Position numbers and translations under genes: made by a program. From positions 1 to 24,786 of the forward strand of contig JAZDEY010000062.1 in the NCBI GenBank assembly GCA_043808325.1: a stretch of DNA of 24,786 bases, written 5' to 3'. Positions 888 to 22,650 of the stretch are shown here, one piece after another. Below the pieces are notes generated by a model. That model saw nothing but the letters and a program-made list of their open reading frames with translations. It made no database searches and was not told the origin of the DNA. Every line of letters starts with the position of its first letter. Position 1 is the first letter of the stretch. Origin of the DNA: JAZDEY01 sp043808325 [NCBI: Candidatus Eiseniibacteriota bacterium]. GTDB lineage: Bacteria; Arandabacterota; Arandabacteria; Arandabacterales.

Positions 888-1044
888 GTTTCGGAAATTA
901 TTGACCACCCGTTTCGGTCCAAAGTGACCACCTGTTTCGGACTCCCCCCAAAAGTGGTTAATTAAAACCGAAATCGCCGGTCAGTTTGCTCCGAATTCAC
1001 TGGTCAATAATTTCCGAAATCGGTGGTCAACAATCTCCGAAATC
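888..1044. repeat. IS21 terminal array of 23-bp repeats (two in one orientation, four in the other)
   Basis: Six 23-bp units lie in register. Units at 888-910 and 911-933 read GTTTCGG...TGACCACC on the plus strand, and a third partial GTTTCGG starts at 934. Units at 953-975, 976-998, 999-1021 and 1022-1044 are contiguous and carry the same motif in the opposite orientation (on the minus strand GATTTCGG...TTGACCACC and variants). IS21-family ends are known to carry several internal repeats thought to bind the transposase. This array fits that role and reaches to within 4 bp of the inferred tip. Confidence 0.85.
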
Positions 1045-7460: not shown

Positions 7461-9023
7461 ATGCCTTTGCGTAGGACGACCCGGGAGAAGATCGATGACC
7501 TCAAATCCAGGAAGGATAAGATAAGGGCGGGGGGCGACGCAGGCAAGATAGAAGAACAGCACAAGGCAGGCAAACTCACAGCCAGAGAGCGAATCCACCT
7601 CTTACTTGACGAAGGCAGTTTCCAGGAGCTCGGAGTCTTCGTCACCCACCGCTGCCAAGATTTCGGCATGCCGGAGAAGAAAATCGTGGGTGACGGCGTG
7701 GTCTCCGGCCACGGCACCATAAACGGCCGCCGGGTATTCATCTTTGCCCAGCAGTTTACGACCTTCGGCGGCACCATGGGCGAGATGAACGCCAGGAAGA
7801 TATGCCAGGTGATGGACCTAGCCGTGGAGAACGGGGCGCCGATAATCGGCCTCAACGACTCCGGCGGGGCGCGGATTCAGGAAGGTGTCTTGAGCCTTGC
7901 AGGCTACGCGGACGTCTTCCTGCGGAACACGCTCGCCTCGGGAGTCGTCCCACAAATCTCGGCCGTGCTGGGGCCATGTGCGGGAGGCGCGGTCTACTCT
8001 CCCGCGATAACCGACTTCATCTTCATGGTCAAGGGCTCAAGCCACATGTTCATCACCGGCCCGAACGTCATCAAGTCGGTCACGGGGGAGAACGTGACCT
8101 TCGAGGAGCTGGGCGGAGCCCTCACGCACGCCACCAAGAGCGGCGTTGCCCATTTCATGTGTGAAGACGAATACGACTGTTTCGCCCGTATCAAGAAACT
8201 CCTGAGCTTCCTGCCCCAGAACAACGTCGATGACCCGCCACGGCTGGAGCCCTCCGACAGGCCCGACCGGACCGAATCCAGACTCGATGAGATCGTCCCC
8301 GATTCCCCCAACAAGGCCTACGATATGCTGGAGGTGCTTAGGCTCGTGGTGGATGACGGCGACTTCTTCGAAGTCCACGCCCAGTACGCGCGAAACATCA
8401 TTGTAGGTTTCGGGAGGCTCAACGGCATCCCCGTCGGCATTGTCGCTCAGCAGCCCAAGGTATTGGCGGGCACCCTTGACATTGCATCCTCCGTAAAGGG
8501 CGCAAGATTCGTGCGGTTCTGCGACGCGTTCAACATTCCTCTGGTGACCTTCGAAGACGTGCCGGGTTTCTTGCCCGGGACCGAGCAGGAATGGGGCGGG
8601 ATCATCAAGCATGGCGCCAAGCTGCTCTTCGCCTATTGCGAAGCCACGGTCCCCAAGATAACCGTGATCACGCGGAAAGCCTACGGCGGCGCCTACGACG
8701 TTATGTCATCGAGACACGTAAGAGGCGATTACAACATAGCCTGGCCGACGGCGGAGCTCGCCGTCATGGGGCCTGAGGGTGCGGTAAACATCATATACCG
8801 CAAGGAGATCGAGAAGGCAGCGGATCCCGAGAAGGCTAGGCAGACCTTCATCGAGGAGTACGAGGCGAAATTCGCCAACCCATACATTGCGGCTTCGCTG
8901 AGCTATATCGACGACGTGATCGCGCCATCGGAGACCAGGCCGTCGATCATCACGGCCCTCGAGATGCTTATGGGTAAGCGCCAGTCCCTGCCTCCAAAGA
9001 AACACGATAACATTCCACTTTAG
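7461..9023 (+). CDS. pccB: Propionyl-CoA carboxylase carboxyltransferase (beta) subunit
   Basis: Transfers CO2 from carboxybiotin to propionyl-CoA, giving (S)-methylmalonyl-CoA. At 520 aa it is the usual size for PccB/AccD5/MmdA, with two crotonase-like halves. Visible motifs are [19 protein letters not shown] (about 38-56), the oxyanion segments [11 protein letters not shown] (132-142) and [12 protein letters not shown] (171-182), and in the second half [11 protein letters not shown]. The Asp in GGAYDVM (D413) is the residue reported in Streptomyces enzymes to favour propionyl-CoA (Asp) over acetyl-CoA (Ile). The ribosome site is GGGAGGT. It heads an operon with biotin carboxylase, biotin carrier, mutase and epimerase, which supports the propionate role. 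A decarboxylase alpha subunit looks similar, but the membrane decarboxylase beta subunit is missing and a biotin carboxylase is present. Confidence 0.93.
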
Positions 9024-9037
9024 ATGAGGGCCGACGG

Positions 9038-10606
9038 GTGAGCCGCGCTGAGAGAGCAAAACCAAAGGATTTGCGGGAAGCAAAGCCCAGGCAGTTCGAT
9101 AAGGTCCTCGTGGCGAACCGTGGCGAGATCGCGATCCGGGTCTTAAGGGCGCTCCGCGAGATGGCAATAGGATCGGTGGCCGTTTTCTCCGAAGCCGACC
9201 GGATGTCGTCCCACATAATGTTTGCCGACGAAGCCTACTGTATCGGCCCGCCCCCAGCGGCCGAGAGCTATCTCTCGATCCCCAAGATCATGGAAATTGC
9301 GCGGCAGACAGGCTGCCAGGCCATACATCCCGGCTACGGGTTCCTTGCGGAGAGCCATGCCTTCGCCCGCGCTTGCGAGGATGCGGGGATCGTTTTCATC
9401 GGCCCGCCGAGTGAAGCGATCCGATCGATGGGGCTCAAGACCGAGGCAAGAAAGATAATGCAGGCCTCGCGAGTCCCCGTGATACCGGGTAGCGACGGCA
9501 TCGTGGCCGACGACAAGGAAGCGCAGCAGCTTGCGGCCAAGATCGGCTATCCCGTAATCCTTAAGGCCTCGGCCGGCGGCGGGGGCAAAGGCATGCGGAT
9601 CGTGAGAAAGCCGGCCGAAGTAGACCAGGCCTTCCGGACCGCGAGAGGTGAAGCTTCCTCATCCTTCGGCAGCCCCGACATCTTCATCGAGAAATACATC
9701 GAGGAGCCTCGCCATATTGAGGTCCAGATACTCGCAGACAACTACGGCAACGTGGTCCAGCTCGGAGAGCGGGAGTGTTCGATCCAGCGAAGGTATCAGA
9801 AGCTTATCGAGGAATCACCCTCCCCTGCGATCGATGATGCCGTCAGGCGAAGCTTGGGTGAGACCGCGGTGGCGGCCGCCAGGGCCGCGAAGTACCGGAA
9901 CGCCGGAACTGTCGAATTCCTTTTCGATCAGTCATCCAACTTCTACTTTCTCGAGATGAACACGAGGCTTCAGGTCGAGCATCCGGTGACCGAGCTCACC
10001 ACGGGCATTGACATCGTCAAAGAACAGATACGGATTGCCGCGGGCTTCCCGCTCAGCATCCGGCAGGCGGACATCAGCCCGCGCGGAGCAGCCATAGAAT
10101 GCCGGATCTACGCCGAAGACCCGAGGAACAATTTCCTGCCGTCCCTGGGGACGATCGGCCGCCTCAGAAACCCCGAAGGACCGTGGGTCAGGGTCGAGAA
10201 CTACATCTATGAAGGGTATCATGTGCCTGTCTATTATGATCCGCTCGTTGCCAAAGTGATCACCTGGGGAGCGACACGGGATGAGGCGTTGGCCAGAATG
10301 CTCCGAGCGCTTGAGGAATATGCTATTGAGGGGATCGAGACCACGATTCCCTTCCACATCTGGGTGATGAGGGATGAGAACTTCAGGCGTGGCTCCTTCA
10401 ACACCTCGTATATCGATCAACACTACACGGCCAAGGCCGGCGAGGAGCGACGCAAGGTCCCGGTTGATGTGGCGGTGATCGCCGCTGCGATAGCCCATCT
10501 CCAGTCGAGGAGTACGCCCGCACACAGGCCGGCCTCAACGGGAAGCCGGTGGAAAGATGCCGCCAGGAAGGAAAACACCCGGAGAGGGCGCCTCCGAGAC
10601 AGGTAA
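9038..10606 (+). CDS. accC: Biotin carboxylase subunit of acyl-CoA carboxylase
   Basis: ATP-dependent carboxylation of the biotin carried by the next gene's product. At 522 aa it is longer than a typical AccC (about 450). The extra length is about 20 residues before FDKVLVANRGEIAIRV and a basic tail of about 50 residues after position 470 that looks disordered. Motifs are the glycine-rich ATP loop KASAGGGGKGM (176-186), ECSIQRRYQKLIEE (246-259) and EMNTRLQVEHPVTE (306-319, catalytic Arg region), all intact. The GTG start lies 14 bp after the pccB stop, with GATGAGGG as ribosome site. No biotinyl domain is fused; it is encoded separately 3 bp downstream. Confidence 0.93.
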   Translation: MSRAERAKPKDLREAKPRQFDKVLVANRGEIAIRVLRALREMAIGSVAVFSEADRMSSHIMFADEAYCIGPPPAAESYLSIPKIMEIARQTGCQAIHPGYGFLAESHAFARACEDAGIVFIGPPSEAIRSMGLKTEARKIMQASRVPVIPGSDGIVADDKEAQQLAAKIGYPVILKASAGGGGKGMRIVRKPAEVDQAFRTARGEASSSFGSPDIFIEKYIEEPRHIEVQILADNYGNVVQLGERECSIQRRYQKLIEESPSPAIDDAVRRSLGETAVAAARAAKYRNAGTVEFLFDQSSNFYFLEMNTRLQVEHPVTELTTGIDIVKEQIRIAAGFPLSIRQADISPRGAAIECRIYAEDPRNNFLPSLGTIGRLRNPEGPWVRVENYIYEGYHVPVYYDPLVAKVITWGATRDEALARMLRALEEYAIEGIETTIPFHIWVMRDENFRRGSFNTSYIDQHYTAKAGEERRKVPVDVAVIAAAIAHLQSRSTPAHRPASTGSRWKDAARKENTRRGRLRDR

Positions 10607-10609
10607 GCA

Positions 10610-11119
10610 ATGATCTACTACGCGAGAATCGACGGGGAAGAAAAGAAGATCCGGATCGACAAGCGCGACGACTTCTACGATGTCACAATTGGCGACGCGC
10701 TCTATCACGTCGACCCAAAGTACCTCGAGAACGTGCAATCCCTGTCGCTCTTGATCAACAGCAGATGCTACGAAGCCAGCATTGCCGAGATCGAGGGGTC
10801 GACCCTTGTCACCATAGGTGGAGAGAAATTCCAAGTCGATCTTACCGACGAGCTGATCTATCTGGCCGGCACGCCATCGCTCGCGCACGGCTCTTCGGAT
10901 ACCGAGGTGATTAAGACGCCTATGCCCGGCGTCGTGGTGGCAATCGAGGTCGAGCCGGGACAGAAGATAGCCCCGGGTTCGCCGGTGGCAATAGTCGAGG
11001 CGATGAAAATGCAGAACGAGATATCGAGCGTGTGTGGAGGGATTGTGAAGGAGATCCTGGTACGTCGCGGGGACACGGTCGAGTCCAATCAGAAACTCCT
11101 GATCGTTGGACGGGAGTGA
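10610..11119 (+). CDS. Biotin carboxyl carrier protein of acyl-CoA carboxylase
   Basis: Carries the biotin shuttled between the biotin carboxylase and PccB. It has 169 aa. The C-terminal biotinyl domain (about 98-168) contains PMPGVVVAIEVEPGQKI and EAMKMQNEI with K133 as the biotinylated lysine. The N-terminal part of about 90 residues is beta-rich and resembles the linking domain between biotin carboxylase and carrier domains of fused propionyl-CoA carboxylase alpha chains, so the alpha subunit appears split into two genes. The start lies 3 bp after the biotin carboxylase stop, suggesting translational coupling. Confidence 0.9.
   Translation: MIYYARIDGEEKKIRIDKRDDFYDVTIGDALYHVDPKYLENVQSLSLLINSRCYEASIAEIEGSTLVTIGGEKFQVDLTDELIYLAGTPSLAHGSSDTEVIKTPMPGVVVAIEVEPGQKIAPGSPVAIVEAMKMQNEISSVCGGIVKEILVRRGDTVESNQKLLIVGRE
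11112..11119 (+). promoter_or_regulatory. Ribosome binding site fixing a TTG start for the mutase gene
   Basis: GGGAGTGA overlaps the TGA stop of the carrier protein and sits 3 bp before TTG at 11123. No ATG or GTG in this frame lies in a better place before the conserved domain begins, so TTG is the likely start. Confidence 0.5.
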
Positions 11120-11122
11120 CCG

Positions 11123-12769
11123 TTGAAAGAGAAAGGGTCCGACCAGTTGCGTGAGGCGTTTGAGGCATGGCGGCGCACGGCCGCCGCCAAGCAGAATCTC
11201 GAGACTCCGTCGGGGATTCCCGTGGATACGACCTACTTCCCTCCTGCCGACGTCGAAGCAACCTATCTTGAGTCGCTCGGTTTTCCGGGCCAGTACCCCT
11301 TCACGCGGGGTGTCTATCCCAACATGTACCGGGGTAGACCCTGGACCATCCGCCAATACGCCGGATTCGCGACTTGCGAAGAGACCAACAAGCGATTCCG
11401 GTTCCTGCTGGCCGGGGGGCAAACCGGGCTTTCGGTGGCCTTCGATCTTCCAACCCAGATGGGCTATGACTCGGACAACCCGCGGGCCGAAGGCGAAGTC
11501 GGCAGGGCGGGCGTTGCGATCGATTCCGTCGAGGACATGGCACGGCTGTTTGAGGGTATCCCGCTGGATAAGGTGAGCACCTCGATGACCATAAACGCGA
11601 CCGCGCCCGTGGTGCTTGCCATGTTCATTGTCGTGGCCGAGTCGCGGGGGATCGCGAGAAAGACCCTTGCGGGGACGGTCCAAAATGACATCCTCAAGGA
11701 GTACATCGCACGGGGCACCTATATCTTCCCCCCCGGACCATCGCTCAGGGTCGCGACCGACATCTTCTCTTTCGCGAGTCGCGAGATGCCGAGATGGAAC
11801 ACGATTTCGGTGAGCGGCTATCATATGCGGGAAGCCGGAGCGACGGCGGTCCAGGAAGTGGCTTTTACCCTGGCAGACGCTATGACCTATGTGAAATACG
11901 CCGTAGATGCGGGGCTCCGGGTGGACGACTTCGCGCCGCGCATCTCTTTCTTCTTTGGGTCCCACAACGATTTCCTCGAGGAGGTCGCGAAGTTCAGGGC
12001 GGCCAGAAGGCTCTGGGCCAGGATCATGAAGCAGAGATTCCTGGCGGAGGATCCCCGCTCATGCACCTTGCGATTCCATACTCAGACCTGTGGGTCGACG
12101 CTCACAGCCCAGCAACCCCTCAACAATATCGTCCGTGTGGCCCTTCAGGCGCTTGCGGCGGTCCTTGGGGGAACCCAGTCGCTTCACACCAACAGTTTCG
12201 ATGAGGCGCTGGCCCTGCCTACCGAGCAAGCGGTGAGGGTAGCGCTCAGGACCCAGCAGATCATGGCCCATGAGAGCAGGGTCACGGATAGTGTCGACCC
12301 ACTTGGGGGAGCCTACTTCATCGAGTATCTTACCGACGAAATCGAGAAGCGCGCCGGGGCATATCTTGATAAGATAGAGGCCATGGGTGGCGTGATTCGA
12401 GCGATTGAAACGGGCTTCATCCAGCAGGAGATCGAGAAGAGCGCCTATGCCTACCAGAAGAGCCTTGACGCCAAGACCAATACCGTAGTGGGACTCAATG
12501 ATTTTGTGGGCGACGACCAGCCGCTCCAAACTCTCAAGATCGGGGCCGAGGTTGAGGAAGAACAGAAGGCGAGGCTCCGCACCTTGAAGCAGAGCCGGCC
12601 CCAGGGCGCGGTCGCCGAGTGCCTTAAGGCAGTCGAGGCCGCGGCACGTGGCGGCGCCAACTTGCTTCCCCCGATAATTGAGGCCACGAGGAACAAGGCG
12701 ACGGTCGGCGAGATCTGTGATGTGCTTCGGCAGGCATTCGGGACATTCGACGAGGTAACCAGACCATGA
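11123..12769 (+). CDS. mcmA: Methylmalonyl-CoA mutase catalytic (large, N-terminal) subunit
   Basis: Coenzyme B12-dependent rearrangement of (R)-methylmalonyl-CoA to succinyl-CoA. The 548 residues cover only the substrate-binding TIM-barrel part. Motifs are [20 protein letters not shown] (60-79), TQMGYDSD (111-118), [11 protein letters not shown] (152-162), [15 protein letters not shown] (190-204) and [11 protein letters not shown] (231-241). Y79, R197 and H234 line up with Tyr89, Arg207 and His244 of the Propionibacterium enzyme. Tyr plus Arg at the first two indicates methylmalonyl-CoA rather than isobutyryl-CoA (Phe/Gln). The C-terminal B12-binding domain (DxHxxG motif) is absent, so a separate small subunit is required and is not in this window. 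The stop overlaps the epimerase start (ATGA). Confidence 0.93.
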
Positions 12770-13170
12770 AGCTTGACGGGGTTGAGCACATAGGTATCGC
12801 GGTCAGCGATCTCGATGCCTGCATCCGGACCTTCGAAGAGGTCTTCGGCATCAAGTGCGCCGCCCGGGAGAAGGTGGAAGCGAGCAAGGTGGAGGTAGCG
12901 GTGTTCGATCTGGGCGGCACCAAGCTCGAGCTTGTGACTCCGACCGATCCCGCAAGCGGCGTCGGTAAGTTCCTGGCGAGCCGCGGGCCCGGAATCCATC
13001 ATATTTGTCTGCGGGTCCAGGACATCGAGGGATGGCTGGATGCGCTCGGCAGGCGCGGTGTTGATCTTATCGATAAGGTTCCGAGGCGCGGGGCCTTTGG
13101 GCATACGGTGGCGTTCCTGAGCCCGAAATCGGTGTGCAACATCCTCATAGAACTGAGCGAACGGAAATGA
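12766..13170 (+). CDS. mce: Methylmalonyl-CoA epimerase
   Basis: Interconverts (S)- and (R)-methylmalonyl-CoA, linking carboxylase and mutase. The 134-aa protein belongs to the glyoxalase/VOC fold with two beta-alpha-beta-beta-beta halves. Metal ligands visible by family pattern are H8 in EHIGIAV, E55 in KLELVTP (a Gln or Glu position in the family), H78/H79 in GIHHICLRV and E129 in ILIELSE. It starts inside the mutase stop (ATGA, 12766-12769) and ends with the same kind of overlap into the next gene, so translation is probably coupled on both sides. Confidence 0.93.
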
Positions 13171-14012
13171 ATCAGCGGAGGCCGGCGAAGCGGTTGAGCG
13201 TGTTGGGTGTGTCGATAGCGCTCGTCGTAGTGCTATCGGTCCTATCGGGTTGCGGCAAGAAGGCCGTGATCGAAGAATCCAAGCAACGATGGGTCAGAAT
13301 CAAGCACACCCCGCTCAGTGAGGTCAGGGCGGGCAGGGAAACGCCGGTCCACGCCGAGATAACCTCCGGGCCGGGCAGCGAGATCACGGCATTCATCTTC
13401 TATCGGTCCGGCGGCAAGGCGTACCAGGTCACCGAGATGCGTCGGCTTGAGCCGGGCAGATACTTCGGCTCGATCCTGCCGCAGGGCCGTGGGGCAAAGG
13501 TTCAGTATTACCTCGAAGCAAGGACCGGCAGCGATCTTGTGGTGCGGGTGCCTGCCAGGGTAAAGGCTGAAGGGTTTGAGGTTTATTCCAAGGGAAGACC
13601 CAATCGGTATCTGCTCGTCGCGCACGTGGTCTTCATCTTCATCGCCCTTTTCTTCTTCTTGTTCTCCGGCTATTTGGCGTTTCGGGCGCTTCAGCACAGG
13701 AGGAGCCTGCTCTATATACCGCGGGTCGCATTTCTGGGCACAATTGCCTTCTTCATAGCCAGCATCCCCCTCGGCATGGTGGTCGCCTATCAGACGTTCG
13801 GCAAACCCTGGACGGGCTTTCCCGTTGGGACCGACCTCACCGACAATAAGTCTCTTGCTATTCTGATCTACTGGGTGGTCTGCGCCTTCCTTTATCGGGG
13901 ATCGCTCTTCCGAAAGGACCCGAGCACCGACCTCATGTCGATGGGCACCCTCCCCTACGTTCACATGGCGGGAGCCGTGATCACGGCGGTGCTGTTTCTG
14001 CTTCCACACTAG
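13167..14012 (+). CDS. Unknown lipoprotein with extracytoplasmic domain and four membrane segments
   Basis: No family is recognised. The ATG at 13167 overlaps the epimerase TGA. The 281-aa product has a basic N-terminus, a hydrophobic stretch and a lipobox LSGC with C29 as the likely lipidated residue. Residues about 30-145 form a beta-rich extracytoplasmic domain (QVTEMRRLEPGRYFGSILPQ, VQYYLEART) reminiscent of Ig or fibronectin-like folds. Four hydrophobic segments follow at about 147-170, 184-208, 230-246 and 263-281, with a conserved-looking loop GKPWTGFPVGTDLTDNKS between segments 2 and 3. A lipid anchor plus several membrane spans in one small protein is unusual. Its coupling to the propionate genes suggests co-expression, but nothing in it points to propionate chemistry. 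Confidence 0.75.
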   Translation: MNQRRPAKRLSVLGVSIALVVVLSVLSGCGKKAVIEESKQRWVRIKHTPLSEVRAGRETPVHAEITSGPGSEITAFIFYRSGGKAYQVTEMRRLEPGRYFGSILPQGRGAKVQYYLEARTGSDLVVRVPARVKAEGFEVYSKGRPNRYLLVAHVVFIFIALFFFLFSGYLAFRALQHRRSLLYIPRVAFLGTIAFFIASIPLGMVVAYQTFGKPWTGFPVGTDLTDNKSLAILIYWVVCAFLYRGSLFRKDPSTDLMSMGTLPYVHMAGAVITAVLFLLPH

Positions 14013-14124: not shown

Positions 14125-15834
14125 ATGCCAGTGGGGCTAAAAACAACACCCAAGAGTACGCGCGAGGCCGAAGTTACGGCGGTCTTCAAGCTGATGGCCA
14201 CGACGCTTAAGAACATAAAGACCTACGACAATAACAATCCCGTGCTCAAGAAGTCCTTCTCGATGCTTTTCCAGAGGCTCGCATCGTTCCTCCGGCAACA
14301 CGAGATGCTAACTCTGTTGGTCAGGGAAAGCGACTTCATCTTCGGCCACAGCCTCGTCTATTCCTCCGCCGACAAAATGGAGAGCCTTGCCTTCGCGCTA
14401 TACAAAGACGGGATCAGGCTTATCACCTTCAAAGACGGTCTTTCGAAACGCGAGTTGCGGGATTTCCTAGCCGCGATACACGAGGCGCGGGAGGTCGATC
14501 CTTACCAAGCCGATTTGGTCACAATCCTCTGGGAGAAAGATCTTGCCAACATAACCTATCGCGCGGTGGATGCCTACCTCGAGAGCGACGAGAAACGCAG
14601 CATCGAGGAGCTTGCCAGAAAGGCGAGCCGCCAGCAGGCAGCCGTGCCAGGAGGCACCACCCTACCGGGCTCGGAGTTCTTCATCAAGGAACTGGGGCTC
14701 TCGCCCGAACAGGGCAGCACGCAGGCCGGGGAGAGACTCAAGGCAAGCGAGGTCGACTCGCGCAGGATCGTCCGCGAAATCCTCGAGGAGGACGACAAAA
14801 ACATTCTACGCCGATGCAGCAATGTCTGCCTTGAGATCGTGCAGTCGACCCCGAGGGACGATACCTTCAACCGCGTGGTCGATTTCCTTGGCCGAATATG
14901 CGATTGGCAAGTGTCGTCGGGGGACTTCCTCTCCGCGTGCTCCATCCTTTCCCACCTGCGTTCGCTCGCCGATCAGCGCGATCTGCGGGCGGTAAGGCGG
15001 GCCAGCATAATGGACACGATTGCCAAGCGTGGCGAGAAACGCAAGATCCAGCAGATACAGGAGCACCTGCACAACCTGTCGGATTCCCAGAGCGAGGAGA
15101 TCTTCGCCTACCTCGCCCTCATGTCGCCGGCGGCGGTGGAACCACTCTGCGAGATGCTCTCCGAATCTGAAGTTCGAAAGGTCAGATATCTGCTTTGCCG
15201 CGCGATCTCGATCCTCGGCAGGACCGACCTGGATCGGCTGCGCGTCTATGCCCAGGACGAACGGTGGTTCTTCGTCAGAAACATCGTGATGATCCTGGGC
15301 ATGATGGCGATCCCGCAGGCGATTCCCATGCTCAAGTCGGCCGTGTCCCATCCCGAGGCGAGAGTCAGGCGGGAAGTGGCGCGTTCCCTCGGCAGGATCC
15401 GAAGCCCCAACGCCATAGAACTGCTGCGAACGCTTCTCGCCGACGGCAACAAGATGGTCCGACTCACGGCAATCGCGGCAATAAAAGACATTGGAGGAGC
15501 CAGAGCCAAGCGTCTCCTAGAAGATATCATCAACGACAGGATGTTCAACCGGAAGTCGATCGACGAGAAGACCGAGACCATGAAGACCTACGGAAGCCTC
15601 GGCGAGGAAACGCTGAGCTTCCTCGAAGCCATTGCCAAGGGCGAGGTCAGGCAGATGGACGAAAAGACCCGCGCCAGCGCGGTCTTCGGGCTCGCAGTGA
15701 TAGAGAGCCCGCGAGTGGTCGAGCTCTTGAAAGTCATGGTAAACGAGGGTTCCGGCGCCGTGCGCTATGCGGCCTCCGAAGCCCTCGGCATGCTTGATGA
15801 CAGGATCACAGTGGGAGCGCCCGATGGAAACTGA
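14125..15834 (+). CDS. HEAT-repeat protein with N-terminal domain shared with the following HD-GYP protein
   Basis: A 569-aa soluble protein with no signal peptide. Residues about 20-150 form an alpha/beta domain (KTYDNNNPVL, ESDFIFGHSLVY, DGIRLITFKDGLSKRELRDF) that lines up with the same region of the next gene's product. A variable linker with Gly/Pro (about 165-185) follows. From about residue 333 to the end there are HEAT-type helical repeats (ARVRREVARSLGRIRSPNAI, GNKMVRLTAIAAIKDIGG, GAVRYAASEALG), usually a protein-binding scaffold. No enzymatic motif is seen. It starts 112 bp after the lipoprotein gene and overlaps the start of the HD-GYP gene by 11 bp, so the two are probably one unit. 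The gap 14013-14124 shows no clear promoter. Confidence 0.8.
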   Translation: MPVGLKTTPKSTREAEVTAVFKLMATTLKNIKTYDNNNPVLKKSFSMLFQRLASFLRQHEMLTLLVRESDFIFGHSLVYSSADKMESLAFALYKDGIRLITFKDGLSKRELRDFLAAIHEAREVDPYQADLVTILWEKDLANITYRAVDAYLESDEKRSIEELARKASRQQAAVPGGTTLPGSEFFIKELGLSPEQGSTQAGERLKASEVDSRRIVREILEEDDKNILRRCSNVCLEIVQSTPRDDTFNRVVDFLGRICDWQVSSGDFLSACSILSHLRSLADQRDLRAVRRASIMDTIAKRGEKRKIQQIQEHLHNLSDSQSEEIFAYLALMSPAAVEPLCEMLSESEVRKVRYLLCRAISILGRTDLDRLRVYAQDERWFFVRNIVMILGMMAIPQAIPMLKSAVSHPEARVRREVARSLGRIRSPNAIELLRTLLADGNKMVRLTAIAAIKDIGGARAKRLLEDIINDRMFNRKSIDEKTETMKTYGSLGEETLSFLEAIAKGEVRQMDEKTRASAVFGLAVIESPRVVELLKVMVNEGSGAVRYAASEALGMLDDRITVGAPDGN

Positions 15835-17386
15835 GACCGGTGAGCAGGCTGCCCGTCAGAAAGCGCTGGAGCAATTCCAGACCGCGAAAGAGCTCATAGG
15901 CCGGCTTTACGTCTTGATCAGGACGGCGCGTTCCTACGACAGATCGAATGCCGCCATGCTTGATAGTGCCCAGGCGCTTCACGCGATCGTCGGCCAGCTG
16001 GTGGACGAGTATGATGCGGTGCGGTTCGACATCGTCAACGACTGCGTCTTCTTTAACCGGGTGAGAATGCGCTCCAGAGTTGCCGGCTTCAACACAATCA
16101 AGTACTTCGTTGAGGAAACCAAACGCAGGGGTATAAGGTCGATAACCTTCGACGAGATGGCGGAGATCGATGACCTTTTGAGCTTCGCTATGGTCTTTAC
16201 CGAGATCGACCCAACGCTGGCCGATCCCTTCGCCGAGCTGGCGCGCCGGATGGAGCTTGAGGGCATTGCAGGAATCGAGATAAAGCCGATAAAGAAGAGC
16301 ATCGAAGATGCCCTGCATGAAGTCCGCGCCCTGCCGACCAAGGAAGAGGCGAAACGGTCTTTCTTCTCGGCGCTCCACATAGTCAAGGAGGCCGTCCAGG
16401 AGGGCGTGGCCAAGGGCAAGGTCAACCCGAGGAAAGTGAAGCGCGTGGTCGAGTCGGTGGTGGACAGCATCCTCTCGGACGAGGAGTCCATGATGGCCCT
16501 GACCGCCATAAAGGACTACGACGAGTACACGTACCATCATTCCTTCAACGTCTGCATCTATTCGATAGCGCTCGGCAACCGGCTGGGACTTCCAAGGCAG
16601 GCCCTGTGCGAGCTCGGGATAGCCGCGCTTTTCCACGACCTCGGCAAGACCGATGTGCCCCGCAATGTCCTGAACAAGATAGAGAACTTGACCGAGGATG
16701 ACTGGCAAACGCTTCAGGAACACACGCTTTCCGGGGTGAAGGTGCTCACCTATCTCAAGAAGATGGATCGCGCCATCCTGAGGTCGATGATCGTGGCCTT
16801 CTGCCATCACCTGAATATGGATCAGTCGGGCTATCCTCAGACCAAAGTGCCGGTCAACCCGGACGCCTTCAGCAGAATCGTGAGAATCGCCGACATCTAC
16901 GATGCCTTGACTTCAGCCCGTTCCTACCGGATGAAGCCCTTCGGGCGTGCCGAGGCCCTCGCGATCATCACCGAGAAGGCCGGCAAGGAGCTCGACCCCA
17001 CCATGTGCGCGATTTTCGCGGACGTAGTCGGGGGCCTGCCCGATGGCGAGGAAGCCACCAAGCAGCTGCGGCACATGGGCGATGCCGTGACCCCGGGCAG
17101 GGATGAGGGCCGGGGCGGAGATCAAGACCGGGAGGAGCCGGCAGACACCGTAAGACGCGACGCCTGGGACTTCCCCGTGGAGGACCAGATCGCCCAAGAC
17201 AATTCCGAGATGCTTGACGAGCCCGCGGCCGGCGAGGATTCCGAGATCGGCGCTGATTCTGAGGATGAAGCAGATGACGACGTCGACACCGACACCGAGG
17301 GCCTCGATACTGATGTCGAGACCCTGGACATAGGCCCGTCCCGCAGGAAACGCTCACCACTCGACAGTCTGGTCGACCAAGAGTAG
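15824..17386 (+). CDS. HD-GYP domain protein, likely cyclic-di-GMP phosphodiesterase
   Basis: The 520-aa product (ATG at 15824, preceded by GGGAG and overlapping the HEAT gene's stop) has an N-terminal domain (about 20-150: RTARSYDRSNAAML, RGIRSITFDEM) like that of the HEAT protein. An HD-GYP domain covers about 225-410. Metal and catalytic residues visible are H238/H239, H271-D272 in FHDLGK, K275, H300, H328/H329 and D357 in IADIYDAL. The signature HHExxDGxGYP reads HHLNMDQSGYP, so the Glu and first Gly are replaced while the metal-binding His pair and GYP remain. The last 100 residues are strongly acidic and probably disordered (EDEADDDVDTDTEG). Hydrolysis of c-di-GMP is the family function; a different cyclic dinucleotide or a signal-binding role is possible. 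Confidence 0.88.
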   Translation: METETGEQAARQKALEQFQTAKELIGRLYVLIRTARSYDRSNAAMLDSAQALHAIVGQLVDEYDAVRFDIVNDCVFFNRVRMRSRVAGFNTIKYFVEETKRRGIRSITFDEMAEIDDLLSFAMVFTEIDPTLADPFAELARRMELEGIAGIEIKPIKKSIEDALHEVRALPTKEEAKRSFFSALHIVKEAVQEGVAKGKVNPRKVKRVVESVVDSILSDEESMMALTAIKDYDEYTYHHSFNVCIYSIALGNRLGLPRQALCELGIAALFHDLGKTDVPRNVLNKIENLTEDDWQTLQEHTLSGVKVLTYLKKMDRAILRSMIVAFCHHLNMDQSGYPQTKVPVNPDAFSRIVRIADIYDALTSARSYRMKPFGRAEALAIITEKAGKELDPTMCAIFADVVGGLPDGEEATKQLRHMGDAVTPGRDEGRGGDQDREEPADTVRRDAWDFPVEDQIAQDNSEMLDEPAAGEDSEIGADSEDEADDDVDTDTEGLDTDVETLDIGPSRRKRSPLDSLVDQE

Positions 17387-17487: not shown

Positions 17488-17568
17488 CACTCGTCGATTC
17501 TTCGTGCAACTTAGCTACTCTTTCACGACTCCTTACTCAGAGTGAGGCTTGTCAAAAGGAGGACCAAA

Positions 17569-18711
17569 ATGGATTTCGGGCTTACCGAACTTCAGCAAAT
17601 GATAAAGGAGAACGCGCGGGAGTTCGCCGAAAAGGAGATAAGACCGTTTGCGAGCAAGATCGACGAGGAAGCCTCCTTCCCTACTGAAATAGTCAAGAAA
17701 CTGAGTGACCTGGGATTTATGGGGATGATGGTGCCCGAGGAACTCGGGGGTGCGGGGATGGACTGCGTGAGTTACGCGATCGCGGTCGAGGAGATATCCC
17801 GGGTGTGCGCCTCAACCGGCGTCATAATGTCGGTCAATAACTCCCTGGTGTGCCAGCCGATCCTGGATTGGGGCTCGCCGGAGCAGCAGAAAAAGTTCCT
17901 CCCCGACCTGGCGAAGGGTAAGAAGCTGGGGGGCTTCTCTCTGACGGAGCCCGAAGCAGGCTCGGATGCCGGCAACATTCAGACCACCGCCGTGCTTCAG
18001 GGCGACGACTACGTCATAAACGGCACCAAGATATTCGTCACGAACGGCGGCAAGGCCGACGTGGTGCTCCTCTTCGCCTCGATCGACAAGGCTCTCAAGG
18101 CCAAGGGCTTGACCGCCTTTCTCGTCGAGCGGGGCATGCCCGGATTCAAGGTCGGCAAGAAGGAAAACAAGATGGGCATCCGGGGGTCGGATACCTCGGA
18201 ACTGATTTTTGAAGACTGCAAGGTCCCTAAGGCCAATCTCCTCGGCCAGCCGGGGCAGGGCTTCAAGATAGCCATGAAGGCGCTGGACGGCGGCAGGATC
18301 GGGATCGCCGCACAGGCCGTGGGAATCGCTCAGGCAGCGATGGAGGCCGCGGTCAAGTACTCCAAGGAAAGAAAGCAGTTTGGGCGCCCGATCGCGGAGT
18401 TCCAGGCGATCCAGTGGATGCTCGCCAACATGGCGGTCGAGATCGATGCGGCCAGATTCCTGACCTGGCGGGCGGCTTTCACCAAGGACAAGGGGCTTAA
18501 CTTCACCAAGGAAGCAGCAATGGCCAAACTCTTCGCCTCCGAGACCGCCGTTAAGACCGCGATCAATGCAGTCCAGGTCCACGGCGGCTATGGCTATATG
18601 AAAGAATACGACGTCGAGAGACACTTCCGTGATGCCAAGATAACCGAGATCTACGAGGGGACGTCCGAAGTCCAGCGGATGGTGATTGCTGCAAGCTTAC
18701 TTAGAGCCTAA
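17569..18711 (+). CDS. Acyl-CoA dehydrogenase (short/branched-chain, butyryl-CoA type)
   Basis: FAD-dependent alpha,beta-oxidation of a short or branched acyl-CoA, passing electrons to ETF. The length of 380 aa is standard. Motifs are the FAD/substrate segment GGFSLTEPEAGSDA (121-134), IFVTNGGKAD (155-164), ERKQFGRPIAEFQAIQWMLA (267-286), VHGGYGYMKEYDVER (337-351) and ITEIYEGTSEVQR (358-370) with E363 as the likely catalytic base. The ATG at 17569 is chosen over an upstream in-frame GTG (17542) because AAAAGGAGG lies directly before it. Followed by etfB, etfA and the membrane ETF oxidoreductase, so the full electron route is encoded together. Chain-length preference cannot be decided from the sequence. 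Confidence 0.93.
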   Translation: MDFGLTELQQMIKENAREFAEKEIRPFASKIDEEASFPTEIVKKLSDLGFMGMMVPEELGGAGMDCVSYAIAVEEISRVCASTGVIMSVNNSLVCQPILDWGSPEQQKKFLPDLAKGKKLGGFSLTEPEAGSDAGNIQTTAVLQGDDYVINGTKIFVTNGGKADVVLLFASIDKALKAKGLTAFLVERGMPGFKVGKKENKMGIRGSDTSELIFEDCKVPKANLLGQPGQGFKIAMKALDGGRIGIAAQAVGIAQAAMEAAVKYSKERKQFGRPIAEFQAIQWMLANMAVEIDAARFLTWRAAFTKDKGLNFTKEAAMAKLFASETAVKTAINAVQVHGGYGYMKEYDVERHFRDAKITEIYEGTSEVQRMVIAASLLRA

Positions 18712-18729
18712 GTTCCCAGGGGGGCCGCG

Positions 18730-19512
18730 ATGAATCTGGTGGTGTGCATAAAACACGTACCCGACACCGAATCCAAGATCAGGGTCAAGCCTGACGGGTC
18801 GGGGATTGTGACCGAAGGCTTGAATTTCGTCCTCAATCCTTATGACGAGTACGCAGTCGAGGAAGCGATAAGGATAAAGGAGAGACTTGCGGGGAGCAAA
18901 GTGGTCGTGGTGTGCATTGGTCCTGAGGACGCCACCAAGTCGCTGAGGACCTGCCTCGCCATGGGTGCTGACGATGCCGTCCATGTGCTTGATAATGATT
19001 ATCAACGGTACGATGGTATCACTACGGCCAGGATGCTGGCAGCCGCAATAAAGGACATACCCTTCGAGCTCGTCCTGTGCGGCAAACAGGCCGTGGATGA
19101 CGATTGCGCCCAGGTTGGGGCTGCAGTCGCGGAGTTCCTGGGAATTCCCAACATCTCGGTGATCACCAAACTTGAGATAGCCGCAGATGGGAAGAAGATC
19201 ACGGTCCAGCGTGAGATCGAGGGCGCGAATGAAGTGGTCGAGACGAGCCTTCCTGCGCTTGTGACGGCCCAGAAAGGCCTCAACGAGCCGCGCTACCCTT
19301 CCCTGCCCAATATAATGAAGGCCAAGAAGATGCAGATCAGGACCGTCAATCCGGATGATCTGGCCCTCGGTCCCGAGGGCGCACCCAAAATCGAAGTCGT
19401 CAAGTTCGCCGAACCGCCGGGAAGAAAGGCGGGCCGTGTCCTTGAGGGTGAGCCCCGAGAAGTAGTCAAACAGGTGATCACGTTTCTCGTTGAAGAAGCC
19501 AAGGTTATATAG
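18730..19512 (+). CDS. etfB: Electron transfer flavoprotein, beta subunit
   Basis: Forms the ETF heterodimer with the next gene's product and carries electrons from acyl-CoA dehydrogenase. At 260 aa it is typical. Motifs are the N-terminal VVCIKHVPDTESKIRV, LNPYDEYAVEEA, the nucleotide-binding LCGKQAVDDDCAQVG, and GLNEPRYPSLPNIMKAKK (the conserved recognition-loop region). The start lies 18 bp after the dehydrogenase stop, with AGGGGGG as ribosome site. No fused extra domain is present. Confidence 0.95.
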   Translation: MNLVVCIKHVPDTESKIRVKPDGSGIVTEGLNFVLNPYDEYAVEEAIRIKERLAGSKVVVVCIGPEDATKSLRTCLAMGADDAVHVLDNDYQRYDGITTARMLAAAIKDIPFELVLCGKQAVDDDCAQVGAAVAEFLGIPNISVITKLEIAADGKKITVQREIEGANEVVETSLPALVTAQKGLNEPRYPSLPNIMKAKKMQIRTVNPDDLALGPEGAPKIEVVKFAEPPGRKAGRVLEGEPREVVKQVITFLVEEAKVI

Positions 19513-19545
19513 AGAAACCGTAAAGTGATATAGAAAAACCATAAG
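19504..19545 (+). repeat. 21-bp imperfect tandem duplication between etfB and etfA
   Basis: Two adjacent 21-bp units (19504-19524 and 19525-19545) match at about 17 of 21 positions, each with the core ATATAGA(A/G)AAACC. The first unit contains the etfB TAG stop. The second ends just before the etfA ribosome site (AAGGAG). Probably a small slippage duplication that sets gene spacing. Confidence 0.6.
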
Positions 19546-19555
19546 GAGATTTAAG

Positions 19556-20548
19556 ATGGCTCGAGCCATGCTGGTAATCTGTGAACAGCGACAGGGCGAG
19601 ATAAAACGGGCGACTTACGAAGCCGTGAGTGAGGCAGCGCGGCTCGCCGCGCAGCTCGGCGGTGAGGTCTCGGCGCTTCTCTTGGGAGATAAGGTGAAGG
19701 CCAAGGCTGCCGGCCTCGCTCAGTATGGCGCTAAGAAGGTCTTTGTCGCCGATGACCCGAGACTCGCCACTTACTCGGTCGACGGCTACTGCAACGTTGC
19801 CAAGAAGGTCTGCGACGAGATCCAGCCCGAGATTATCGTGCTTTCCGCAACCGCGACCGGCAAGGACCTGGCTCCGCGGCTTGCGGCAAGATTGGGTGCT
19901 GGCCTCGCAAGCGACGTCACGGCGACCGAGATTGTCGATGGTAGTCTCCTGCTCACCCGGCCTATCTTTGCCGGCAAGGCCCTCATCACTATCAAGGTGA
20001 TTTCCCAATCCCAGGTGGTCACGTTTCGACCCAAAGTGATGGCTCTGGCGGACGTCGATGCCTCACTTGCGGCCGAGATCAAGGATGTCGCGCTCGACGG
20101 CTTGCTTGATAGCATGCGAACCACTGTGACTCAGACCGTAGCGACTGCGACCGGCAGGCCTGACGTCTCCGAGGCGGATATCATAGTCTCGGGAGGCCGC
20201 GGCACCAAGGCGCCCGAGAATTTCAAGATTCTCGAGGATCTGGCCGATCTGCTCGGGGCCGCCGTTGGCGCCTCACGTGCTGCAGTTGATGCAGGCTGGC
20301 GAGATCATCAAGACCAGGTCGGGCAAACCGGCAAGACCGTCACACCCAACCTTTACATAGCCTGCGGCATATCCGGCGCCATCCAACACCTGGCCGGGAT
20401 GCTTTCCTCCAAGTGCATCGTGGCCATCAACAAGGACCCCGAAGCTCCGATCTTCCAGGTCTGCGATTACGGTATCGTTGGGGATCTCTTTGAAGTAGTG
20501 CCGATCTTCACCGAAGAATACAAGGCGATCAAATCGAGCGGTTCCTAA
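19556..20548 (+). CDS. etfA: Electron transfer flavoprotein, alpha subunit
   Basis: Binds the FAD of the ETF heterodimer. At 330 aa it is usual. The C-terminal FAD domain is clearly visible: [52 protein letters not shown] and [13 protein letters not shown]. The start is supported by AAGGAG 8 bp before the ATG. No N-terminal ferredoxin insert of the kind seen in some bifurcating ETFs is present, so transfer to the membrane oxidoreductase encoded next is the simplest role. Confidence 0.95.
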
Positions 20549-20562
20549 AGAGCAGGCTTCCA

Positions 20563-20571
20563 GGGAGGTGA
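20563..20571 (+). promoter_or_regulatory. Strong ribosome binding site fixing a TTG start
   Basis: GGGAGGTGA ends 3 bp before TTG at 20575. It is the strongest Shine-Dalgarno in the operon and fixes the rare TTG as the start of the membrane oxidoreductase. No in-frame ATG lies before the first membrane segment. Confidence 0.6.
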
Positions 20572-20574
20572 CCA

Positions 20575-22650
20575 TTGGAGGCAACCGTACGGGCCATCGG
20601 TTACGGTGCATACGCGATTCTCTACGGCATCTTCATCCTCGCAGTTGCCCTCTTCGCCTGGGGCTTGAGGGGCAAGCTCGATAAAATCCGCAAGGGTCAG
20701 CCTGAGACTCGATCCGAGCGACTCAGAGAACGAATCAAGGGCTTCGTCGAATTCGTCTGCTTTCAGAAGCGCCTCTTCCAGGACCTGTTTCCGGGCCTGA
20801 TGCACGCCTTCATCTTCTGGGGGTTCCTGGCCTTCGCGCTCGGCTACGGCATTCTCTTCCTGCAGGCCCACGATTACTATGACAGCCTGTTCGGTTGGCT
20901 CTTCGGCGGCTGGCTTGCATTTGCGTATAACATCTTCACGGATTTCTTCGCGGTGCTGGTGATCCTCGGGGTCTTGGTCGGCCTGGTGCGGCGCTATATC
21001 TGGAGACCCGAGAGGCTGGATGTCACCCTTGATGCCGGCCTGGTCCTGATGCTGATCTTCTCCATCATGGCCACCAATCTCCTGGCCGAGGGTGCCTTGA
21101 TCCGGCTGGGAGGACTTCCCACCGTAAGTGCGGCATTTGTAGGTAAGTACGTTGCGAGGATTTTCGAGTCCTCGAGCGAGGCCTCGGTCAACCAGATCTA
21201 TATTGCGGTCTGGTGGCTTCACATATCGATTGTGCTAAGCTTCCTGGTCTATCTCCCCCACTCCAAGCATTTCCATATCGTCTTGGCGCCCTTCAATGTG
21301 CTGCTTCGGAACTTGGGACCTTATGGGGCGCTCACTAAGGTCAACATTGAAGGAGCCGAAACCTTCGGCGCGGCCAAGCCCTACGACTTCAGATGGAAAT
21401 CGCTGCTCGACCTCTTGGCTTGCGCCGAGTGTGGCAGGTGCCAAGACCATTGCCCGGCACACGCCACCGAGAAGCCGCTCTCACCCAAACGCCTGATCCT
21501 GGACCTCAAGGATGCTTTCGTCGAGTACGGCAAGTCGGGGGGCACCTCAGCGGCCTTACCGGCTGGGGCTTCCGAGTCCGGGGCGCAGCAATCGCCTGCC
21601 AGCGCGGCCGCCACGCCAGCCACGGCCGAGCCGGAAGAGTACGAGGTATCCAAGAAGGTGGGCGAGGATGCCATCTGGAGCTGCACTACGTGCAGGGCCT
21701 GTGAGGAGCACTGTCCCGTCTTCATCGAGCACGTTGAGAAGATTGTCGAGATGCGGCGGAATCTGGTGCTGATGGCGTCGCGCTTCCCTCAGGAAGTGAC
21801 CCAGCTCTTCAAGAATCTCGAGACCAACTACAATCCCTGGCCGATCGGATTCGCCCAACGCGCCGATTGGGCCAAGGGCCTCAATCTCAAGGTGGCCAAG
21901 AAGGGCGACAAGGTGGATGTGCTGATCTGGGTTGGCTGTGCCGGCGCCTTCGATGACCGAAACAAGAAAGTCGCACGCTCCCTGGTGAGCGTCTTGCGCA
22001 AGGCGGGAATAGAGCCGTCCTTCCTGGGCACTGCCGAGAAGTGCTGCGGCGATCCCGCGAGGCGTAGCGGCAACGAGTACCTGTATCAGACGCTCGCCGA
22101 GGAGAATGTCACCCTGCTCAGCGGTATAAGCTTTAAGACCCTGATCACAACCTGCCCCCACTGTTATAACACCATCCTCAATGAGTACCCTCAGTTCGGG
22201 GGCGACTACGGGGTCGAGCATTACACCACGTTCCTGGGGCGGTTGATCGCGGACGGGAAGCTTTCACCCAGGGCCGCCGGCGCCGCTGCCGAAGCCGCCG
22301 CGACCGGTACCTACCACGACTCATGCTACCTGGGAAGATATAGCGGCATCTACGACGAACCCCGAGCGCTCCTCGCGGCGTGCGGTGTCGCCTTGAAGAA
22401 CGCCAAGCGCTCCGGCCCAGAGGGCTTCTGCTGCGGCGCCGGCGGCGCCAGGATGTGGATGGAGGAAAGCCTAGGAACCAGGATCAATCACTCGCGCCTG
22501 GCACAGCTCAAGGTTACGGGCGCGACCAAGATATTTACAGCTTGTCCTTATTGTCTTACCATGCTCGCCGATGCGGTCAAGGAGAAAGAGGAAACCACAC
22601 TCGAAGTCAGCGACATCTGCGAGCTCATAGATGAGCGCACCCAGGCCTGA
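20575..22650 (+). CDS. ETF:(mena)quinone oxidoreductase, membrane Fe-S/cytochrome b fusion (EMO type)
   Basis: The product (691 aa, TTG start) would take electrons from EtfBA to the quinone pool. The N-terminal half carries about five hydrophobic segments with histidines placed as in NarI-like cytochrome b (LMHAFIFWGF and WWLHISIVLSFLVYLPHSKH). Two 4Fe-4S motifs follow: CAECGRCQDHCP (283-294) and CTTCRACEEHCP (370-381). The C-terminal half has two CCG domains as in heterodisulfide reductase HdrB/GlpC: KCCGDPARR at 490 and FCCGAGGARMW at 619. This domain order matches the EMO family described from syntrophic fatty-acid oxidisers. A stretch of about 35 residues rich in Ala, Ser, Pro and Gly (about 321-354) sits between the two clusters. 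Last gene of the operon. Confidence 0.9.
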   Translation: MEATVRAIGYGAYAILYGIFILAVALFAWGLRGKLDKIRKGQPETRSERLRERIKGFVEFVCFQKRLFQDLFPGLMHAFIFWGFLAFALGYGILFLQAHDYYDSLFGWLFGGWLAFAYNIFTDFFAVLVILGVLVGLVRRYIWRPERLDVTLDAGLVLMLIFSIMATNLLAEGALIRLGGLPTVSAAFVGKYVARIFESSSEASVNQIYIAVWWLHISIVLSFLVYLPHSKHFHIVLAPFNVLLRNLGPYGALTKVNIEGAETFGAAKPYDFRWKSLLDLLACAECGRCQDHCPAHATEKPLSPKRLILDLKDAFVEYGKSGGTSAALPAGASESGAQQSPASAAATPATAEPEEYEVSKKVGEDAIWSCTTCRACEEHCPVFIEHVEKIVEMRRNLVLMASRFPQEVTQLFKNLETNYNPWPIGFAQRADWAKGLNLKVAKKGDKVDVLIWVGCAGAFDDRNKKVARSLVSVLRKAGIEPSFLGTAEKCCGDPARRSGNEYLYQTLAEENVTLLSGISFKTLITTCPHCYNTILNEYPQFGGDYGVEHYTTFLGRLIADGKLSPRAAGAAAEAAATGTYHDSCYLGRYSGIYDEPRALLAACGVALKNAKRSGPEGFCCGAGGARMWMEESLGTRINHSRLAQLKVTGATKIFTACPYCLTMLADAVKEKEETTLEVSDICELIDERTQA

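Follow-up and report, generated by a model that had tools for sequence, protein, structure and literature searches.

HD-GYP enzymes often act as dimers, and response regulators of the RpfG type carry, together with the HD-GYP domain, a receiver domain at the N terminus. Described phosphodiesterases of this family include PmGH (PDB 4mcw), the 3'3'-cyclic GMP-AMP (3'3'-cGAMP)-specific phosphodiesterase 3 (5z7c), and Bd1817 (3tm8). Trigger phosphodiesterases (PdeR/DgcM/MlrA, Escherichia coli) are described in PMC5052742 as members of a protein complex whose output they control; the known ones are EAL enzymes whose binding partner is a transcription factor or DNA. Here, we report a pair of adjacent genes in a 24,786-nucleotide stretch of a Candidatus Eiseniibacteriota genome (contig JAZDEY010000062.1, positions 1 to 24,786; this whole stretch is called the window), the first encoding a HEAT-repeat protein and the second an HD-GYP protein, whose N-terminal regions are copies of one shared domain, named Nd.

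The HD-GYP product resembles PmGH, 5z7c, and Bd1817 in its catalytic domain, seven metal-site residues, K294, and GYP motif but differs from them in its undescribed Nd, in a HEAT partner gene carrying the same domain, and in having Y254 in place of E185 of PmGH. With the trigger phosphodiesterases it would have its mechanism in common, except that the proposed binding would run through a HEAT scaffold and a paralogous domain that both proteins carry. The repeats of the first product are those of HEAT-repeat proteins (PF13646, PBS lyase-like), a generic likeness. HD-GYP enzymes and HEAT scaffolds are both known kinds; the shared domain was not found in the libraries searched, and there is a fair chance that it and the coupled pair make up an undescribed two-protein system. 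Among the papers listed in literature searches on HD-GYP or HEAT proteins with a scaffold, partner, or fusion, none described the pair or Nd.

The N-terminal regions of the two proteins are homologous. BLASTP, run as one comparison between the two window N termini, gave an E value of 0.003 with 20% identity across 106 columns, and profile-profile alignment with hhalign, the check that the earlier note on this DNA had set beforehand, was significant: 14 HEAT-type against 15 HD-type sequences (window and closest relatives) matched with a probability of 97.5 (E 6.2e-12, 133 columns), and addition of rows from a second phylum (15 against 16 sequences) gave 99.4 (E 3.3e-21). Five control comparisons with other parts of both proteins gave probabilities of at most 1.6 (E of at least 0.03); of 60 column shuffles, the highest-scoring one reached 0.8 (E 0.068). 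The three segments that the earlier note had aligned by eye lie in the same register as the hhalign alignment, and its shared N-terminal domain stands with bounds corrected to about residues 11 to 150 of the HEAT protein and 36 to 175 of the HD-GYP open reading frame (ORF). Among subsets, the A copies of the pair alone gave 92.0 and the B copies alone a weak match (58.1), and the cross comparisons held (HEAT-A with HD-B, 96.7; HEAT-B with HD-A, 79.9). One HD-GYP protein (L032) bridges the types, its Nd matching the HEAT-type profile at 96.7 and the HD-type profile at 80.9. The 20% pairwise identity and the score of the B copies might speak for chance, or for some generic helical pattern, as the source of this resemblance, but that reading is barely credible against the column-shuffle and other-segment controls and the equal order of elements in two separately predicted folds.

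These folds were predicted with AlphaFold2 from separate alignments and compared by element order, not by coordinates. The HEAT-type Nd model had a predicted local distance difference test score (pLDDT) of 90.0 and a predicted template modeling score (pTM) of 0.83, and the HD-type model had a pLDDT of 94.1 and a pTM of 0.88. Both consist of two long helices, a beta hairpin, a helix, a strand, two helices, and a strand; in the HEAT-type model, the third strand, after the hairpin, is longer, and an extra helix lies at the low-confidence end. The earlier note had named differing folds as grounds for giving up the homology, and the order of predicted elements matches.

Nd is an alpha/beta domain absent from the libraries searched and without a confident match among solved folds. 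Of 31 Nd sequences searched against Pfam, NCBIfam, and PHROGs, never more than one was hit by the same family (lowest E values, 0.0085, 0.012, and 0.016, respectively). Foldseek against the PDB gave neither model a match at E 1e-3 or better. The best VIA-align hits were taken as no information, both for the HEAT-type Nd (Z 3.9; root mean square deviation [rmsd] 5.6, 94 aligned) and for the HD-type Nd (Z 5.1; rmsd 6.5, 91 aligned; a designed protein). The designed protein Octarellin, the best profile match among PDB sequences at an E value of only 0.0029, was rejected as a relative.

Genome contigs scanned with the HEAT protein as the query yielded three loci, one of them in a Candidatus Aminicenantes metagenome-assembled genome (MAG) and two in other bacterial MAGs, each with the HEAT gene followed by the HD-GYP gene. 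The phyla surveyed were those reached from these matches: that of the closest relatives and that of the Aminicenantes MAG, which we take to be Acidobacteriota in GTDB. The phylum of genome G001, one of the closest relatives, was taken to be that of the window from the 57% identity and the common gene order, not by a marker tree. Nd was present in seven of the eight genomes of the closest relatives' phylum, six of which have two or three sites each with both genes (some cut by contig ends), while the seventh (G002) has one complete pair and one site where only part of the HEAT gene is visible. In the phylum of the Aminicenantes MAG, Nd was found in 64 of 199 genomes (E 1e-3 or better) and in 27 of 60 in its class. 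Locus context was taken for every match listed from the 199-genome search; the extra matches of the 60-genome class search were left out.

The 104 loci held 73 ORFs with both Nd and HD-GYP, 70 of which have a gene with Nd and/or HEAT directly upstream on the same strand (by profiles, 59 Nd plus HEAT, 8 Nd only, and 3 HEAT only). These 70 pairs comprise the window, 15 in 7 genomes of its lineage, and 54 in 40 of the 199 genomes. Of the three unpaired ORFs, two (L032 and L219) are each overlapped from upstream by an ORF that looks HEAT-like by eye, and the third (L207) is a 216-residue remnant with no partner; in L190, Nd and HD-GYP are split over two adjacent ORFs. The median pair spacing was −4 bases, with 52 of 70 between −30 and +60 and exactly −4 the commonest value (22/70); large overlaps may be start-codon errors, because spacing was taken from the longest ORFs. 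Two tandem Nd-HEAT/Nd-HD-GYP pairs in one locus were seen in L165 and L167.

As a pairing control, 20 loci were picked by similarity to the HD-GYP protein (Nd included in the query) and not by HEAT. A HEAT neighbor was present in 9 of 9 loci with Nd and in 0 of 11 without (Fisher p 6e-6). The first-pass flanks missed the upstream gene in four of these 11 (L041, L044, L047, and L050) and covered only 282 bases upstream in L049; with upstream flanks of 0.7 to 5 kb, a HEAT or Nd match was found in 0 of 20 Nd-less HD-GYP loci (the 11 plus 9 more, a subset of the list of HD-GYP-similar loci). None of the ten genes flanking the window pair was found in the 21 second-phylum loci searched, and the commonest neighbor family in the second phylum occurred in 6 of 52 loci, so the pair itself is the conserved unit. 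Among plasmid records, two matched the HEAT protein, both within the repeats only, and no single match in any of 522 records spanned 80% of the HD-GYP protein (at most 65% among the matches listed). Nd might merely homodimerize each protein, with the genes co-expressed; the two paralogous Nd types, each with its own C-terminal part (a WEKD-like motif in many HEAT-type rows), would suit that arrangement, but we consider it distinctly unlikely against a pairing kept over two phyla in which the ten tested flanking genes were not.

From its sequence, the second product is most likely an HD-GYP phosphodiesterase for cyclic di-GMP (c-di-GMP). All seven tabulated metal-site residues are present in the window protein (H258, H290, D291, H319, H347, H348, and D376), as are the catalytic lysine K294 and the GYP motif (G355, Y356, and P357). 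Metal-ligand roles in PmGH were taken from PMC4159591. In the alignment to PmGH, Y254 falls at the position of the metal ligand E185, four residues before the first histidine; it replaces a ligand of the third metal, and the glutamate of the PmGH trinuclear-iron subclass is absent from the window protein. In PmGH, E185A lowers activity but does not abolish it, according to the same source. Tyrosine occupies this position in 55 of 74 sequences, the window included. The substrate could be 3'3'-cGAMP instead of c-di-GMP: the cGAMP-specific enzyme 5z7c is the second-best PDB match of the window protein. A hydrolase of this or of a noncyclic nucleotide, which would take the module out of c-di-GMP signaling, would fit both that match and the tyrosine, but Nd proteins fused to PilZ and GGDEF and the intact GYP motif of the window protein make it unlikely.

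All seven metal-site residues are kept in 61 of the 74 sequences, and the GYP motif as well in 52. The other 13 are two cut or remnant sequences (L018 and L207) and 11 with altered residues. In L082, L088, L156, and L158, several active-site residues are lost while Nd and the partner gene are retained, as expected if binding matters beyond catalysis. Elsewhere, GYP is lost and the other tabulated metal ligands are kept (L190, L201, L164, L171, and L173; in L190 and L201 one histidine is also lost).

In a quick tree of 163 Nd sequences (few columns, several long branches), the HD label changes 5 times, where shuffled labels change 51 times on average, and the types are largely separate; HD-type Nd may have a single origin, and we propose that the two Nd copies arose by one or a few old duplications. 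Distances among HEAT-type Nd correlate with those among HD-type Nd (r 0.80; none of 999 permutations exceeded 0.10), and the nearest neighbor agrees by either protein in 44 of 65 pairs. The correlation supports co-inheritance rather than binding, because shared species history contributes to it.

The shared domain, the matching element order, the conserved pair, and the mostly intact active site are computed results. We suggest, with the chances about evenly balanced, that the two genes form a signaling module in which the paralogous Nd domains would tether the phosphodiesterase to the HEAT scaffold for local control of c-di-GMP. The genes would be translationally coupled; the first product would be a HEAT-repeat scaffold or effector whose HEAT arm binds a target, and the two Nd copies would bind each other, holding the phosphodiesterase on the scaffold in a physical complex. 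Binding and hydrolysis of the cyclic dinucleotide by the enzyme might then switch the scaffold output, or the scaffold might set enzyme activity locally; both c-di-GMP as the substrate and the direction of control are presumed here.

Several points weigh against this tethering module: the weak match of the B copies, Y254 and the possible cGAMP substrate, the share of species history in the distance correlation, the solo genes, and the small number of clear fusions. Thirty-four Nd genes, nearly all Nd-HEAT, have no Nd-bearing HD-GYP mate; one abuts an HD-GYP ORF (L190) and one runs off its contig (L200), which leaves 32. The 34 are spread over 29 genomes, a pair being present as well in 7 of these, and the HD-GYP profile matched none of 168 ORFs neighboring the solo genes of at least 400 residues (E 1e-3). 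Because of these mateless genes, Nd cannot serve only to bind an HD-GYP partner. Among 19 proteins sent to Pfam, two showed clear fusions to c-di-GMP domains. A 1,164-residue protein (L088:5202-8696, − strand) reads PilZ-PilZ-protein kinase-Nd-HEAT and is followed by an Nd protein with a degenerate HD-GYP, and the ORF at L200:133-3039 reads GGDEF-AAA ATPase followed by two Nd; a PilZ match in L205 was below the cutoff (E 0.0081; 16.9 bits against 22.5). These fusions tie Nd proteins to c-di-GMP, in few cases. What is supported of the view that Nd joins a scaffold to c-di-GMP turnover is a link between the HEAT protein and cyclic-dinucleotide signaling, drawn from the pairing in two phyla and the PilZ and GGDEF fusions; the mateless Nd genes speak against an exclusive heterodimer role.

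The main rival takes Nd as a ligand-sensing or localization domain, for a common signal or a membrane or polar target, borne by two outputs that respond in parallel without contact. It accounts for Nd on HEAT proteins without an HD-GYP mate, for the tandem Nd of L177 and L200, and for a position at or near the N terminus in most such proteins, as is often the case for sensor domains. A complex is the better fit to the coupled order, HEAT first and HD-GYP second, and to a HEAT pairing that depends on Nd (9/9 against 0/20), and the fold searches gave no relative with a known ligand; we regard this rival as doubtful, if less so than the others.

Near the solo genes, an HD-superfamily-hydrolase-like gene of about 226 residues (by eye) overlaps or abuts Nd-HEAT upstream in L169, L175, L178, L186, and L202, a histidine-kinase-like gene (by eye) abuts it downstream in L169, L176, and L178, and histidine-ammonia-lyase-like genes (by eye) recur.

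More broadly, and with a probability we place slightly short of even, Nd may be a dedicated docking domain of an undescribed two-protein system, whose HEAT-borne and HD-GYP-borne paralogues would heterodimerize and so couple a scaffold to cyclic-dinucleotide turnover in the lineage of the window and the Aminicenantes phylum, sometimes with PilZ, GGDEF, or kinase parts; dead-enzyme forms might persist as a purely c-di-GMP-responsive or structural switch. How signals stay specific in cells with many c-di-GMP enzymes is an open question to which dedicated scaffold docking is one proposed answer. A gene pair with matching domains, kept across two phyla (the window and 47 genomes), offers a compact, testable case, and Nd, missing from the searched libraries, provides a purely sequence-based way of finding HD-GYP partners.

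The features of the window pair are collected in Table 1. As the earlier note had read them, one Nd copy is fused to HEAT repeats (PF13646) and the other to an HD domain (PF13487), with both ORFs where it had placed them. HEAT_2 matched the first protein in three stretches (97.6 bits against a Pfam cutoff of 27.7), no NCBIfam model reached its cutoff for the repeats, and neither N terminus was covered by Pfam or NCBIfam, each at E up to 0.1. In the HD-GYP protein, Pfam (matches up to E 0.1) showed no receiver domain of the RpfG-type architecture. Its acidic tail, also reported before, is present but not conserved, as the closest relatives stop shortly past the HD domain. The reported overlap of the ORFs is real, but a start at ATG 15824 is more likely than one at 15767, so that it would span 11 bases instead of 68.

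Table 1. Features of the Nd-HEAT/Nd-HD-GYP gene pair (window coordinates; aa, amino acids)
Feature	Position	Strand	Basis
Nd-HEAT gene	14125..15834	+	ORF, 569 aa; HEAT_2 PF13646, E 5.1e-28; copy-A relatives 43-57% identical
Nd of HEAT protein, residues 11-150	14155..14574	+	Profile match to HD-GYP N terminus; predicted fold, pLDDT 90.0
HEAT-repeat region, residues 215-558	14767..15798	+	HEATc profile built here and Pfam HEAT models
Likely 11-base gene overlap	15824..15834	+	ATG at 15824 preferred as HD-GYP start; GGGAG at 15813-15817; from sequence
Nd-HD-GYP gene	15767..17386	+	Longest ORF, 539 aa (about 520 aa from 15824); HD_5 PF13487, E 2.9e-21
Nd of HD-GYP protein, residues 36-175 (longest ORF)	15872..16291	+	Profile matches; predicted fold, pLDDT 94.1
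HD-GYP catalytic domain, residues 205-428	16379..17050	+	Profile, residue table, alignment to PmGH 4mcw
Acidic C-terminal tail, residues 430-539	17054..17383	+	Translation; not found in closest relatives

Upstream of the pair (7461-13170) lie carboxyltransferase, biotin carboxylase, and glyoxalase-like genes, and one gene there resembles methylmalonyl-CoA mutase by eye. Downstream (17542-22650), one gene resembles acyl-CoA dehydrogenase by eye and is accompanied by two electron-transfer-flavoprotein-like genes and a gene for an Fe-S protein; this gene order is common to copy A in relatives. Next to copy A, genes of the propionyl-CoA carboxylase, methylmalonyl-CoA mutase, or acyl-CoA dehydrogenase type occur in the window as well as in 7 of the 13 closest-relative loci searched. 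A link to propionyl-CoA metabolism was rejected, and these genes are not counted in the module, because they were not found at E 1e-10 in the five copy-B loci searched, the third copy (L025), or the 21 second-phylum loci. A defense role was also rejected, both PADLOC hits falling in the HEAT repeats. The product of the gene at 13134-14012, a short membrane protein matched by neither Pfam nor NCBIfam, begins by eye like a lipoprotein; it is kept next to copy A in the closest relatives, at 43-56% identity, but searches of the other loci did not find it. Farther upstream, at 1023-3254, the window encodes a TPR and CHAT (caspase-like) protein (Pfam CHAT, E 6e-68).

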